A DNA stretch of 49,029 bases from Bacteroidota bacterium (lineage in GTDB: Bacteria; Bacteroidota; Bacteroidia; Chitinophagales; Saprospiraceae), in assembly GCA_017857395.1 (NCBI GenBank), contig JAFMDF010000030.1:1-49029 (forward strand). Reading direction: 5' to 3'. This document shows, one piece after another, positions 7,504 through 16,322 of the stretch. Made by a program: the position numbers and the translations under genes. Position 1 is the first letter of the stretch; each line of letters opens with the position of its first letter. The notes under the pieces were generated by a model. The model was not told the DNA's origin and ran no database searches. It worked only from the letters and a program-made list of their open reading frames with translations.

Positions 7504-7936
7504 CTTTCCATATTAAACTTTATGAGCGACTCGATTTATCAATTTCTAGCAATTAAGTCGCAGCATACATTCATAAATAATATATCAAATTGACAACCAA
7601 TGCTCACAGAAAGGAAAGGATAATCAGAAAATTATACGCACTACGTACGAGTGTGGCTTTAATCTGATTTATAAAAAGTGCTAAAAACAGTTTTCTCAAA
7701 ATCTTAGTTATTGTAAAATGGCCAATCAAGGTTATTTTTTGGAATAAAAATATATTTTTAAAATAATTAAATAAAAAAAGATATATTTATTGTTTTTTTT
7801 TATTGACAAAACACACAAAAAAAATAATTATAACTAACTGTTCATCAATCACTTAAAATCATATCACAAAAAATAAACATTATTTAAATATTGAAAAATA
7901 AAGTAATTTGTAATTTTTTAAACCTTTAATCGTCCA

Positions 7937-7944
7937 TATCTTTG
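7937..7944 (+). promoter_or_regulatory. -7 promoter box in front of the ATCCCA/hairpin array
   Basis: TATCTTTG matches the Bacteroidota TAnnTTTG -7 consensus exactly, giving a predicted start near 7950. No ideally spaced -33 TTG is seen; TTTG occurs about 26 bp upstream, further than usual. No protein gene follows for 760 bp, so a non-coding transcript is the simplest reading. Confidence 0.4.
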
Positions 7945-8182
7945 TAGTGTAATTAATCGGAAAACGTTTCGATGTTTACAATCCCACAAAAAAGAACAAC
8001 AGTGATAATTCCATGAACAAATAGTAGGGACTTGAACAATCCCATAACAAATTATCCCAAAAGAAAGCCGAGATTTAAATCCCACATTAAAATCAACGTT
8101 TTCTACTAATAACAACATCGGAGGTTGGCGAATTCATGAACATTTATCCCAACACAACAACCGCCTCCGACCATGAACATAT

Positions 8183-8530
8183 CTTGACATTATTTTTAAG
8201 ACGCAAACAACAGTCCATAATCCCATGAATGAAGAGACCGAGTCAAATCACGACTCGGTCTCTTCAAAAAAGCTTGAACATTTGACATTCCAGAACAATA
8301 AGAACAAAATATCCTAACAAGAACACATTATTTTTTAGAACAAACACCGTTTTTTATAATCCTATGAATGAAATGCCCGATCAAGTGTCGGGCTTCTTTA
8401 AGAACTAATCAAGGCCTGATTATATATCAAAACACTCCTTTCTATTTACAATTAGCACAACAAACAAACACATTATTTTTTGAACAAACACACATCCCAT
8501 GAACCGGTCATTCGCACCGGTTTTCTTTTT
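8183..8530 (+). repeat. Three tandem units, each ending in a hairpin with a 7-nt loop
   Basis: Three diverged units have matching landmarks. Each begins with ACATTATTTTT (8188, 8325, 8470), followed by a CAAAC-containing segment, then an AATCCCATGAA-like block with its ATG at 8225, 8364 and 8499 (spacing 139 and 135). Each then has a hairpin: stems 8230-8244/8252-8266 (15 bp), 8375-8380/8388-8393 (6 bp) and 8502-8508/8516-8522 (7 bp). All three loops are exactly 7 nt, and the stem sequences differ completely while staying self-complementary, which is the mark of a conserved RNA structure. Units two and three end in T-rich tracts like intrinsic terminators. Confidence 0.65.
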
Positions 8531-8711
8531 ACAAAAAAATACCTTCCTTTCCTTTTAATAAAAATACCCAGAGGCCCTCAGGTCTAATAAAAAATAAAAT
8601 GTTGGAAGCCATTTAGCATTAAGCACAGAAAAAGAAAAATTACTATTTTCTAGTTTTTAAAACTTTTATATCTTGCCCAAGTAAAAGCATATTATTCAAC
8701 ACGAATTCACT

Positions 8712-9383
8712 ATGGACAAATATTTAGAACAACTGTTAGCAGATATAAAATATGCCACAGAAAACGTAGCTTGGCCTTATGCGAGTAGCGAAAAAGAAGC
8801 CGTTTCTTTAGCAGATTGGATATCTGACGAAGAGGAAGAAAAAACAGCACCTCGTATCCAATTAGAGGTTTGGACAGGGATTCAACAATCCCAATTCCCA
8901 CCAGAAAATTTATTATCAGACAAACAAATTGACCTACTTTATAAGGCCTTAGAAGAAATGTTAAGGGCTTATAATTATTATGCTACCTTTATTTTCACCT
9001 TGCCTACCCGCATTCGATATGAAGTAGTTCGTACCAATTTTAGTCAAGAAGCGATTCAAAAGCAATGGCATACAGGCTTCTTTGAATTATGCAAAACCAA
9101 TCAATCAAATCCAGATTGCCTAATGGGTGAGGAGTGTCATTGTGCTTATTTTGAAGAATTATCTGCTAATTTTATTCAAGAAGATTTAAGCCCAGCAGAA
9201 GAACGCCAACGAGAACTAGAAATTGAACTCCAACACATCAAACGAAAATATGGCGCCGACTACATGAAGTATTATCCCTATCATCTCGACCCTAAATATG
9301 ATGATGAACATGGGAATCCTCATGATTATGGTTTTGGAGATGTAGACGATGAAAAGGACGAAGATAATTGGTGGAAGCAATAA
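8712..9383 (+). CDS. Hypothetical acidic Cys-cluster protein, relative of the 259-1068 product
   Basis: 223 residues, no signal peptide or membrane helix. It carries clustered cysteines at 127, 136, 142 and 144, and a very acidic C-terminal tail with Tyr/Asp/His ('PKYDDEHGNPHDYGFGD') that ends in a Trp-Trp pair. The order of landmarks (Trp-Gly segment, Pro-Glu-Asn, an 'ALEE' helix, a Pro-containing strand, the Cys cluster, then an acidic tail) matches the protein at 259-1068, so the two are probably distant paralogues 7.6 kb apart. The Cys spacing differs (X8, X5, X1 here; X3, X2, X5 there). It is a single gene with the hairpin array upstream. Function unknown. Confidence 0.7.
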   Translation: MDKYLEQLLADIKYATENVAWPYASSEKEAVSLADWISDEEEEKTAPRIQLEVWTGIQQSQFPPENLLSDKQIDLLYKALEEMLRAYNYYATFIFTLPTRIRYEVVRTNFSQEAIQKQWHTGFFELCKTNQSNPDCLMGEECHCAYFEELSANFIQEDLSPAEERQRELEIELQHIKRKYGADYMKYYPYHLDPKYDDEHGNPHDYGFGDVDDEKDEDNWWKQ

Positions 9384-15266: not shown

Positions 15267-16322
15267 CCTAGGTTATCTCCTTCATATAAAATAACGCTCC
15301 TCTTCTTAATCTTTCTTATCAATAGCTGCCAGCCGAATAAGGTCAAAATCACTCCAGCATTTTATCATTGGCAAACTAATTTATCACTTTCTAAAATAGA
15401 GCAAAAATACCTTTCCAATTTAGCCATCCAAAAAATCTATCCTAAATTTTTTGATGTAGATTGGGATTTTAATCAACAAGCCGCTGTTGCTTTAGCAACG
15501 CTCTCTCTTTCCTCAGATTTACCAAAGGAAGTAGCAATCATACCGACCGTATTTATTACCAATCGAACCTTAGTTCATATTTCGAATGACCAACTGCCTG
15601 ATTTAGCCAACAAAGTAGTGCAAAAATTAAAAGGTCAAATGGGATTATTTTCTACTCTTACTATTAACGAAATTCAATTTGATTGTGATTGGACACAAAG
15701 TACTAGAATCAAGTATTTTGAATTATTGACCTTATTAAATCAATTTTTTGAGCCTCAAGGAATTACTTTATCAGCGACCATTCGTTTACATCAAATAAAA
15801 TATGCGCAAAAAACAGGTGTACCACCTGTAGCAAGAGGCATGTTGATGTATTATAATATGGGAACGGTACAAAAAGAAACGACCGGAAATTCTATTTTGG
15901 ATAATGAAATTGGTGCAAAATACCTCGATAAATTAGCCCCTTATCCTTTACCTCTAGATGTTGCCTTACCTTTATTCCAATGGGGCGTATTATTTAGAAA
16001 TAATAAAATGATAAAGTTATTGAATCAGTTGACAGCAAATGAATTGAGTGATGTACAGCGGTTTGCTAAAATCAATAAAAATCATTGGGAAGTAATAAAA
16101 AGTACGTACCTTAATGGAGTATATTTGTATAAAAATGATAAAATTCGATTGGAAAAAGTGGATAGGGCGACTTTAACAGCAGCAGCAGATTTATTGCAGC
16201 AACAGTTAAAAAGAGATAATCGAAGTATTGTTTTTTATCATTTAGATTCGACGGTCATTCAGCAATTTAAAATAACTGAGTTGAAAGAAATAATTAAAAA
16301 ATTTGAAAGAACTACCAAATAA
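15261..16322 (+). CDS. Lipoprotein resembling DUF3142-type (TIM-barrel-like) proteins
   Basis: 353 residues from TTG 15261. An in-frame stop at 15255 and no ATG before the signal sequence make this the likely start. A lipoprotein signal ends in LINSC (Cys23). The conserved core has 'INEIQFDCDWTQSTR', 'LSATIRLHQIKYA', 'GVPPVARGMLMYYNMG' and 'YPLPLDVALPLFQW', a strand-helix rhythm like glycoside-hydrolase-type TIM barrels with acidic and aromatic residues at strand ends. I believe it belongs to or near DUF3142, function unknown; a sugar-active role is only a guess. It is followed at once by the partner gene at 16336. Confidence 0.65.
   Translation: MKPRLSPSYKITLLFLIFLINSCQPNKVKITPAFYHWQTNLSLSKIEQKYLSNLAIQKIYPKFFDVDWDFNQQAAVALATLSLSSDLPKEVAIIPTVFITNRTLVHISNDQLPDLANKVVQKLKGQMGLFSTLTINEIQFDCDWTQSTRIKYFELLTLLNQFFEPQGITLSATIRLHQIKYAQKTGVPPVARGMLMYYNMGTVQKETTGNSILDNEIGAKYLDKLAPYPLPLDVALPLFQWGVLFRNNKMIKLLNQLTANELSDVQRFAKINKNHWEVIKSTYLNGVYLYKNDKIRLEKVDRATLTAAADLLQQQLKRDNRSIVFYHLDSTVIQQFKITELKEIIKKFERTTK

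Follow-up and report, generated by a model that had tools for sequence, protein, structure and literature searches.

Judged by its sequence signals, the segment at 7937-8530 of the window (the whole stretch of 49,029 nt analysed here, one of the 631 contigs of a 10.15-Mb Saprospiraceae genome) is a single non-coding RNA gene of about 585 nt, which we name type I RNA. The motif repeated along it reads as the reverse complement of regions conserved in another non-coding RNA family, which is multicopy and is named P RNA here; type I RNA therefore probably soaks up P RNAs. Our preferred reading, held with moderate confidence, is that the segment encodes a multi-site decoy, or sponge, for these paralogous small RNAs. 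The genome holds three type I copies, that of the window and two in tandem on contig C132, the second of which is broken at the contig end with its 3' part at the start of C509. The features of the window copy are collected in Table 1.

Table 1. Features of the type I RNA gene in the window (stem pairs counted on arms picked and registered by eye)
Feature	Position	Strand	Basis or partner
Promoter	7903..7944	+	GTAATTTG at 7903-7910 (-33 region), TATCTTTG at 7937-7944 (-7 box, TAnnTTTG)
Type I RNA gene body, putative P RNA sponge	7946..8530	+	Fold, paralogues/orthologues, P complementarity
P-complementary site AATCCCAC	7980..7987	+	To loop E2
P-complementary site CCATGAACA	8011..8019	+	To E1/E3
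Small hairpin GGGA[CTTGAACAA]TCCC	8027..8043	+	Sequence; similar element in copy B, G155, G156
P-complementary sites AATCCCAT and TAACAAATTAT	8038..8055	+	To E1/E3 and to E3, respectively
P-complementary site TAAATCCCAC	8076..8085	+	To loop E2
Hairpin H2, loop displays CATGAACA	8119..8169	+	6/8 pairs changed on both sides, 11 versions
P-complementary site in H2 loop	8135-8143	+	
P-complementary site CCATGAACATATC	8171..8183	+	To E1/E3
P-complementary site ATAATCCCATGAA	8217..8229	+	To E3
Hairpin H3, 15 bp, 7-nt loop	8230..8266	+	Double changes at 4/11 pairs, 7 versions
P-complementary site ATATCCTAA	8309..8317	+	To E1
P-complementary site TTATAATCC	8354..8362	+	To E3
Hairpin H4, 7-nt loop	8375..8393	+	Double changes at 4/6 pairs, 6 versions
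P-complementary site ATCCCATGAAC	8494..8504	+	To E1/E3
Intrinsic terminator, hairpin H5 and T-run	8502..8530	+	Sequence; double changes at 3/7 pairs, 7 versions

P RNA, a family-wide small RNA with three conserved elements

The pattern ATCCCATGAAY occurs 25 times in the genome, against six for the reversed pattern. Twelve of these places lie antisense of ncRNA-like loci, the P RNAs, three in the type I RNAs, seven inside ORFs of at least 100 aa, and three elsewhere (one at the start of a STAS gene on C326, one downstream of a gene on C423 and an unassigned one on C565). Three P RNAs of this genome are complete (C116, C153 and C570), the rest being contig-end pieces or core and terminator only. 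A complete P RNA runs from a promoter (..ATCTTTGTAGTGTG or near variants) through a 5' hairpin, E1, the E2 hairpin, a spacer and E3 to a terminator. E1 (UAAUAAUUUUAGGAUAUGUUCAUGGGAUUU) and E3 (UUUUGGAUAUGUUCAUGGGAUUAUAAUUUGUU) both contain the core GGAUAUGUUCAUGGGAUU, E2 is a 12-nt hairpin loop (UUAGUGGGAUUU), and E1-E3 form the conserved 29% of P. The E2 loop is present in all 15 distinct P 5' regions, which were picked by their E1 core; it is invariant across seven different 11-bp stems, and 12 of the 14 stem positions are paired throughout the 13 distinct contexts in which it was seen. P RNA carries a promoter, a terminator and covarying stems of its own, and this promoter shares ATCTTTGTAGTGT with that of type I RNA.

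ATCCCATGAACATATCC, the antisense of the P core, is found exactly in all nine genus genomes (reversed control with at most two mismatches: none in six of them, one or two in three). Across the family, GGATATGTTCATGGGATT with at most one mismatch was matched in 288 of 398 genomes and 93 of 112 genera, and the reversed control was absent among the matches listed. Several of the 30 P loci retrieved family-wide carry units in tandem, spaced by about 160-175 nt and flanked by hairpins. AUAAU, which follows the core and was no part of the search key, is 83-98% conserved over 63 units. With the P core in nine of nine genus genomes and type I RNA in four of nine, the core would be conserved for some reason other than the sponge. 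P-like cores are also seen in viruses: the IMG/VR contigs L299, L300 and L303 hold GGATATGTTCATGGGATTATAATT, with a terminator-like hairpin after it in L299 and perhaps in L300, and one other context is common to three further viral matches (L301, L302 and L304). Phages may thus carry P-like RNAs.

Type I RNA is complementary to the conserved parts of P RNA

The complementarity between the two RNAs is strongly supported. The window RNA shows 38 complementary 8-mer positions with P RNA, whereas shuffles gave a mean of 4.7 and a maximum of 14 (0 of 500 reaching the observed value) and the same-sense control gave 1. At k = 8 the other eight type I pieces also lay beyond all 500 shuffles; at k = 10 the 3' piece of copy B was not significant (26 of 500 shuffles reach it) and G155A was reached by one of 500. 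Over the nine pieces, 106 of 112 complementary matches of at least 9 nt fall within E1-E3, counted with the P gene of C570 as reference and with any site fitting both E1 and E3 counted twice. The longest match, 26 nt, is in G155. The window RNA has 11 sites of at least 8 nt to E1-E3, single sites measuring 8-13 nt, plus six short matches elsewhere in P. These sites carry partial copies of CAAATTATAATCCCATGAACATATCC and AAATCCCAC and are mostly predicted unpaired, with hairpins between them; their mean predicted unpaired probability is 0.68, against 0.48 for the rest of the RNA. The ten matching letters of the site at 8076-8085 are also present in A, B, G153, G155A and G156A, and 12-13 letters match in G155B and G156B.

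Predicted interaction energies with P lay beyond all 25 shuffles in each of the four pieces tested out of nine (W, G153, A and G156B). When single P elements were set against the window RNA, E1 lay beyond 200 shuffles, while E2 and E3 alone did no better than the best shuffle. In its predicted fold, P has E1 and E3 largely paired (mean unpaired probabilities of 0.14 and 0.38, respectively), so that pairing with type I RNA would need refolding or a helper. A scan of 1.35 Mb (13% of the genome), partly chosen in that 20 stretches came from contigs with motif hits or of prior interest, gave the window RNA as the best 600-nt stretch, with eight sites against a maximum of three in the reversed control. 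The seven best scan windows were four type I RNAs, one antisense of a P gene and two lying mostly in or against ORFs (C423 and C556). On C423, a hairpin at 16016-16080 (L255:1016-1080) lies downstream of a secreted-protein-like gene, and ATCCCATGAACGATTATCC, carried in its loop, is partly complementary to E3 of P.

From these sites we infer titration of P by type I RNA. Three points weigh against it: gene starts in general are not clearly richer in P-complementary sites (see below), P is predicted to pair within itself over some of its elements, and only four of nine genus genomes yielded type I RNA. The pairing could also be real and the roles different, the long RNA being a target or effector controlled by P, or both RNAs belonging to one structural RNA-RNA assembly. 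The same complementarity would fit, P is far more widespread and multicopy, as the regulator of a species-specific target could be, and both promoter kinds share the same element. However, about 11 short sites along a non-coding RNA exceed the needs of a single target, and no other feature of the long RNA points to an effector; we regard such a distribution of roles as unlikely, though worth keeping in mind.

A repeated motif, predicted to be mostly unpaired

ATCCYA occurs nine times on the plus strand of 7946-8535 and not once on the minus strand. Judged by the remainder of the window, 0.26 would be expected per strand (Poisson P = 1e-11), and none of 2000 dinucleotide shuffles of the segment reaches nine. 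The strong excess of ATCCCA/ATCCTA described in the initial annotation is therefore real, with a count of nine and not eight. The nine sites have mean unpaired probabilities of 0.52-0.98 in the predicted fold. The same annotation had suggested a transcribed decoy, an option that our results support, but the partner was proposed to be a protein and the genome shows a complementary RNA family instead.

In RNAs of the CsrB/RsmZ type, a repeated motif displayed among hairpins titrates a regulator protein; these RNAs have many GGA motifs, mostly in hairpin loops. Type I RNA likewise repeats a motif among hairpins, and such unpaired repeats could be the binding site of a protein that the long RNA titrates, as CsrB/RsmZ titrate CsrA/RsmA. 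Yet the type I motif is not GGA, which appears only three times in 590 nt, with one ANGGA, so that it is not of the CsrA type. Titration of a protein would also leave unexplained the exact complement to the conserved parts of a second RNA family, and we consider it improbable.

All hairpins share a single promoter and a single terminator

The TAnnTTTG box at 7937-7944, correctly recognised at the outset, is the only one of its type in 7903-8530, and transcription would start near 7950. A pattern covering both promoter boxes is found at three genomic places, which are the three type I copies; CTTTGTAGTGTAATNA with at most one mismatch is found at four (the three type I copies and the type II RNA on C585, described below), against one for the reversed control. 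The last hairpin is the only one followed by a long T-run. The window RNA folds better than its shuffles (z = -3.86; copy A, z = -2.32). Transcription from the minus strand would turn the window into a P-like array; this reading was rejected because the conserved promoter and the terminator T-run lie on the plus strand.

The segment had been described as a tandem array of three units of about 137 nt, possibly yielding a family of small RNAs. The recurring segments on which this rested are present (ACATTATTTTT at 8187, 8325 and 8470, AATCCYATGAA at 8219 and 8358, and CATCCCATGAA at 8493), but Tandem Repeats Finder finds no array there, and the motif is not confined to the supposed units, as it also runs through the 5' half at 7981-8151. 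One small RNA per hairpin unit would agree with the spacing of the three similar segments, 135-146 nt apart, and with the tandem units in which the family-wide P RNAs occur. It is nevertheless hard to reconcile with one promoter and one terminator spanning all hairpins, with a long T-run after the last hairpin only, and with a promoter, sites and a terminator that are constant among copies differing in their hairpins. An array of independent small RNAs is thus very doubtful, and we retain the single decoy RNA.

No frame in the window RNA exceeds 66 aa, and the longest ATG-started frame fully inside it encodes 57 aa on the minus strand, which bears out the absence of a protein gene; a 66-aa ORF at 7918-8118 on the minus strand overlaps the RNA gene. 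Downstream, 8712-9383 encodes a 223-aa protein without Pfam match, and the promoter-like stretch preceding this gene is also found after the orthologous RNA in G153. The view that the RNA gene has a promoter of its own and is independent of the downstream gene is supported. In Rfam 15 the window has no match at gathering score, and in an E-value search of the type I, type II and P RNA loci all matches listed were below gathering.

Type I RNA keeps its signals while its hairpins drift

By BLAST, type I RNA is present in four of nine genus genomes (G000, G153, G155 and G156), so that the related copies in sister genomes that the initial annotation had set as a test do exist. Its absence from the other five is likely; the genomes are 82-94% complete, and a diverged relative could escape. 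Covariation, the other test set, is seen in 6-11 versions per hairpin. In H2, six of eight pairs are changed on both sides and one of the 88 cells is unpaired, and in H3 pair 2 is broken in four of seven versions; as the arms were chosen and registered by eye, this covariation is support and not a formal test. Structure is thus kept while sequence changes, as had been claimed, although the statement that the stems differ completely compared different hairpins: set against its own counterparts, each hairpin has part of its sequence kept and covaries at other pairs. The hairpins at 8230-8266, 8375-8393 and 8502-8522 do each have a 7-nt loop in the window copy, but loop length is not conserved: at 8230, the hairpin has a loop of 7 nt in the window and in G153, of 10 nt in copy A and of 9-13 nt in the copies from G155 and G156. 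Type I copies also differ from one another by the gain, loss and duplication of hairpins, but the promoter, the motif sites and the terminator are constant. Intergenic DNA that is degraded or repeated, or the relic of a mobile element, would account for multiple copies lying partly at contig ends but hardly for a promoter, a terminator, stem double changes and a strand-specific motif kept in copies from four genomes, and a lack of RNA function is extremely improbable.

A BLAST search of 150 family genomes with the window RNA gave matches in ten, including its own. Four of the nine others were examined and appeared to be chance matches, and all nine have at most four AT[CT]CC[AT] per 600 nt on a strand, a density by which alone the remaining five were judged. 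Searches of phages returned only 27-nt matches (E = 0.7), and searches of plasmids none. The promoter pattern itself was found in 77 stretches of genome contigs and 65 of viral contigs. When these were ranked by motif repetition, the most conspicuous candidates outside the genus, among those listed, were a coding repeat (L063) and small-peptide loci of Tenacibaculum, and were discarded. The Tenacibaculum loci (L131:4680-5710 and L100:5980-6730) consist of tandem genes that encode small peptides, about 33 aa long (M..LLKRIDRIVKGFLTALAECAKGASYAIHH and relatives), and every gene has its TAnnTTTG-like promoter and its terminator.

A candidate target of P RNA and a second type of long RNA

The best candidate for a P target is the conserved start site of the mRNA of a STAS-domain protein (PF01740). 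Its leader carries AUAUCCAAAAUU and UCCCAUGAAC and is conserved in eight orthologues (45-100% identity; G156 gave a weak match only), with AUAUCC in seven of the eight, AAAACCGA in all and CCAUGAA at the start codon in seven, G152 having CUCAUGAA. AUG occurs in several sites of the window RNA (CCCAUGAAC), which gives these the look of mRNA start sites. A role of P RNAs as general start-codon repressors is unsupported by the sampled gene starts. At 876 of them, P-complementary 10-mers show no clear enrichment (42, against 33 for the reversed and 23 for the sense control), nor does TCCC directly before ATG (2 against 1.3 expected). This suggests that P has few such targets or acts otherwise, and the depth of the P core must be explained by something beyond the sponge.

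Type II RNAs are long non-coding RNAs that have the type I promoter in common but carry the repeat AAAACCGAUU (..AAGUA) between their hairpins instead. The genome has one on C585 (L042:1960-2870; relatives L041, L198, L201, L206 and L202). A search matched eight of nine genus genomes, G151 giving only weak short matches, and seven cases are convincing: C585, G152, G156, G155 (where the contig end leaves a 5' piece), G063, G150 and G154. UUGUUGUUGCC precedes the terminator in all six copies readable to the end; it is itself preceded by an E3-like CAUGAGAUUAUAAU in C585 and G152, and by variants differing in one or two letters in G156, G154 and G150. The STAS leader has the type II motif as its other half. 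No complementary RNA for AAAACCGAUU was found among the loci examined. The leader, AUAUCCAAAAUU...AAAACCGAU..UCCCAUGAA, joins type I and type II motifs (L306 upstream of 1501, C326:6468 in the source genome; orthologues L307-L313). AAAACCGAUU was also observed three times around a hairpin in a lipoprotein-like mRNA leader (L295, around 1500, G152:C66) and downstream of an apparent sigma-factor gene (L297, around 1225, G156:C244).

On this basis, we propose that type I RNA would be made from its own promoter and end at its own terminator, and that it would present some 11 sites, mostly predicted to be unpaired, between hairpins of freely drifting sequence. These sites, reading as the reverse complement of E1, E2 and E3, would pair with P RNA, as sequence and predicted energy suggest, and free P would fall by titration. 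P itself may act by pairing over the start codons of a small number of mRNAs, that of the STAS gene among them, in which case the sponge would mimic such a start site. More tentatively, these RNAs might form a bacterial competing-RNA network, in which a family-wide multicopy P RNA is checked in one genus by dedicated long multi-site sponges, perhaps born of reverse-complement P elements behind a P-like promoter. The sponge would then mimic and compete with the start site of the STAS (anti-sigma-antagonist-like) mRNA, and type II would mimic the neighbouring AAAACCGAUU half of the same leader.

Relation to known RNA sponges and significance

The Bacteroidota phylum at large initiates translation largely without Shine-Dalgarno sequences. 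A published account describes this for Flavobacterium (PMC9723704).

MicroRNA sponges such as CDR1as/ciRS-7 carry many partial target sites on one long RNA. Type I RNA resembles them in this respect but is bacterial and linear, has far fewer sites and involves no Argonaute. QrrX of Vibrio cholerae is described as an RNA sponge that pairs with and inactivates the sibling sRNAs Qrr1-4 (PMC9732341). Like QrrX as described there, type I RNA, known from its sequence, would be a dedicated non-coding RNA base-pairing with, and inactivating, a set of sibling sRNAs; it differs in its roughly 11 short sites on about 585 nt, in phylum and in sequence. FopS of Bacteroides thetaiotaomicron is described as a 14-member sRNA family with a conserved seed and a terminator that pairs near start codons, and its sequence is also reported in a phage (PMC11697453). 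P RNA is similarly multicopy in a Bacteroidota genome, with a conserved core and a terminator, and P-like cores occur in IMG/VR viral contigs; by description, P differs in its two core copies and invariant hairpin loop. A model of FopS is said to have been added to Rfam, and the P loci have no Rfam match at threshold.

A literature search covering mostly open-access papers, without preprints, found neither type I nor P RNA. The logic of the sponge is already known. Neither the P family nor a long RNA carrying so many sites turned up in Rfam 15 or in the literature searched. If the preferred reading is true, bacteria would have in type I RNA an equivalent of the multi-site microRNA sponges, a dedicated RNA of about 585 nt with about 11 sites for one sRNA family. 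Its partner is thereby exposed as a non-coding RNA family unmatched by Rfam 15, with its core in 288 of the 398 sampled family genomes, and the pair would open a direct way into the post-transcriptional control of a large group of environmental bacteria.
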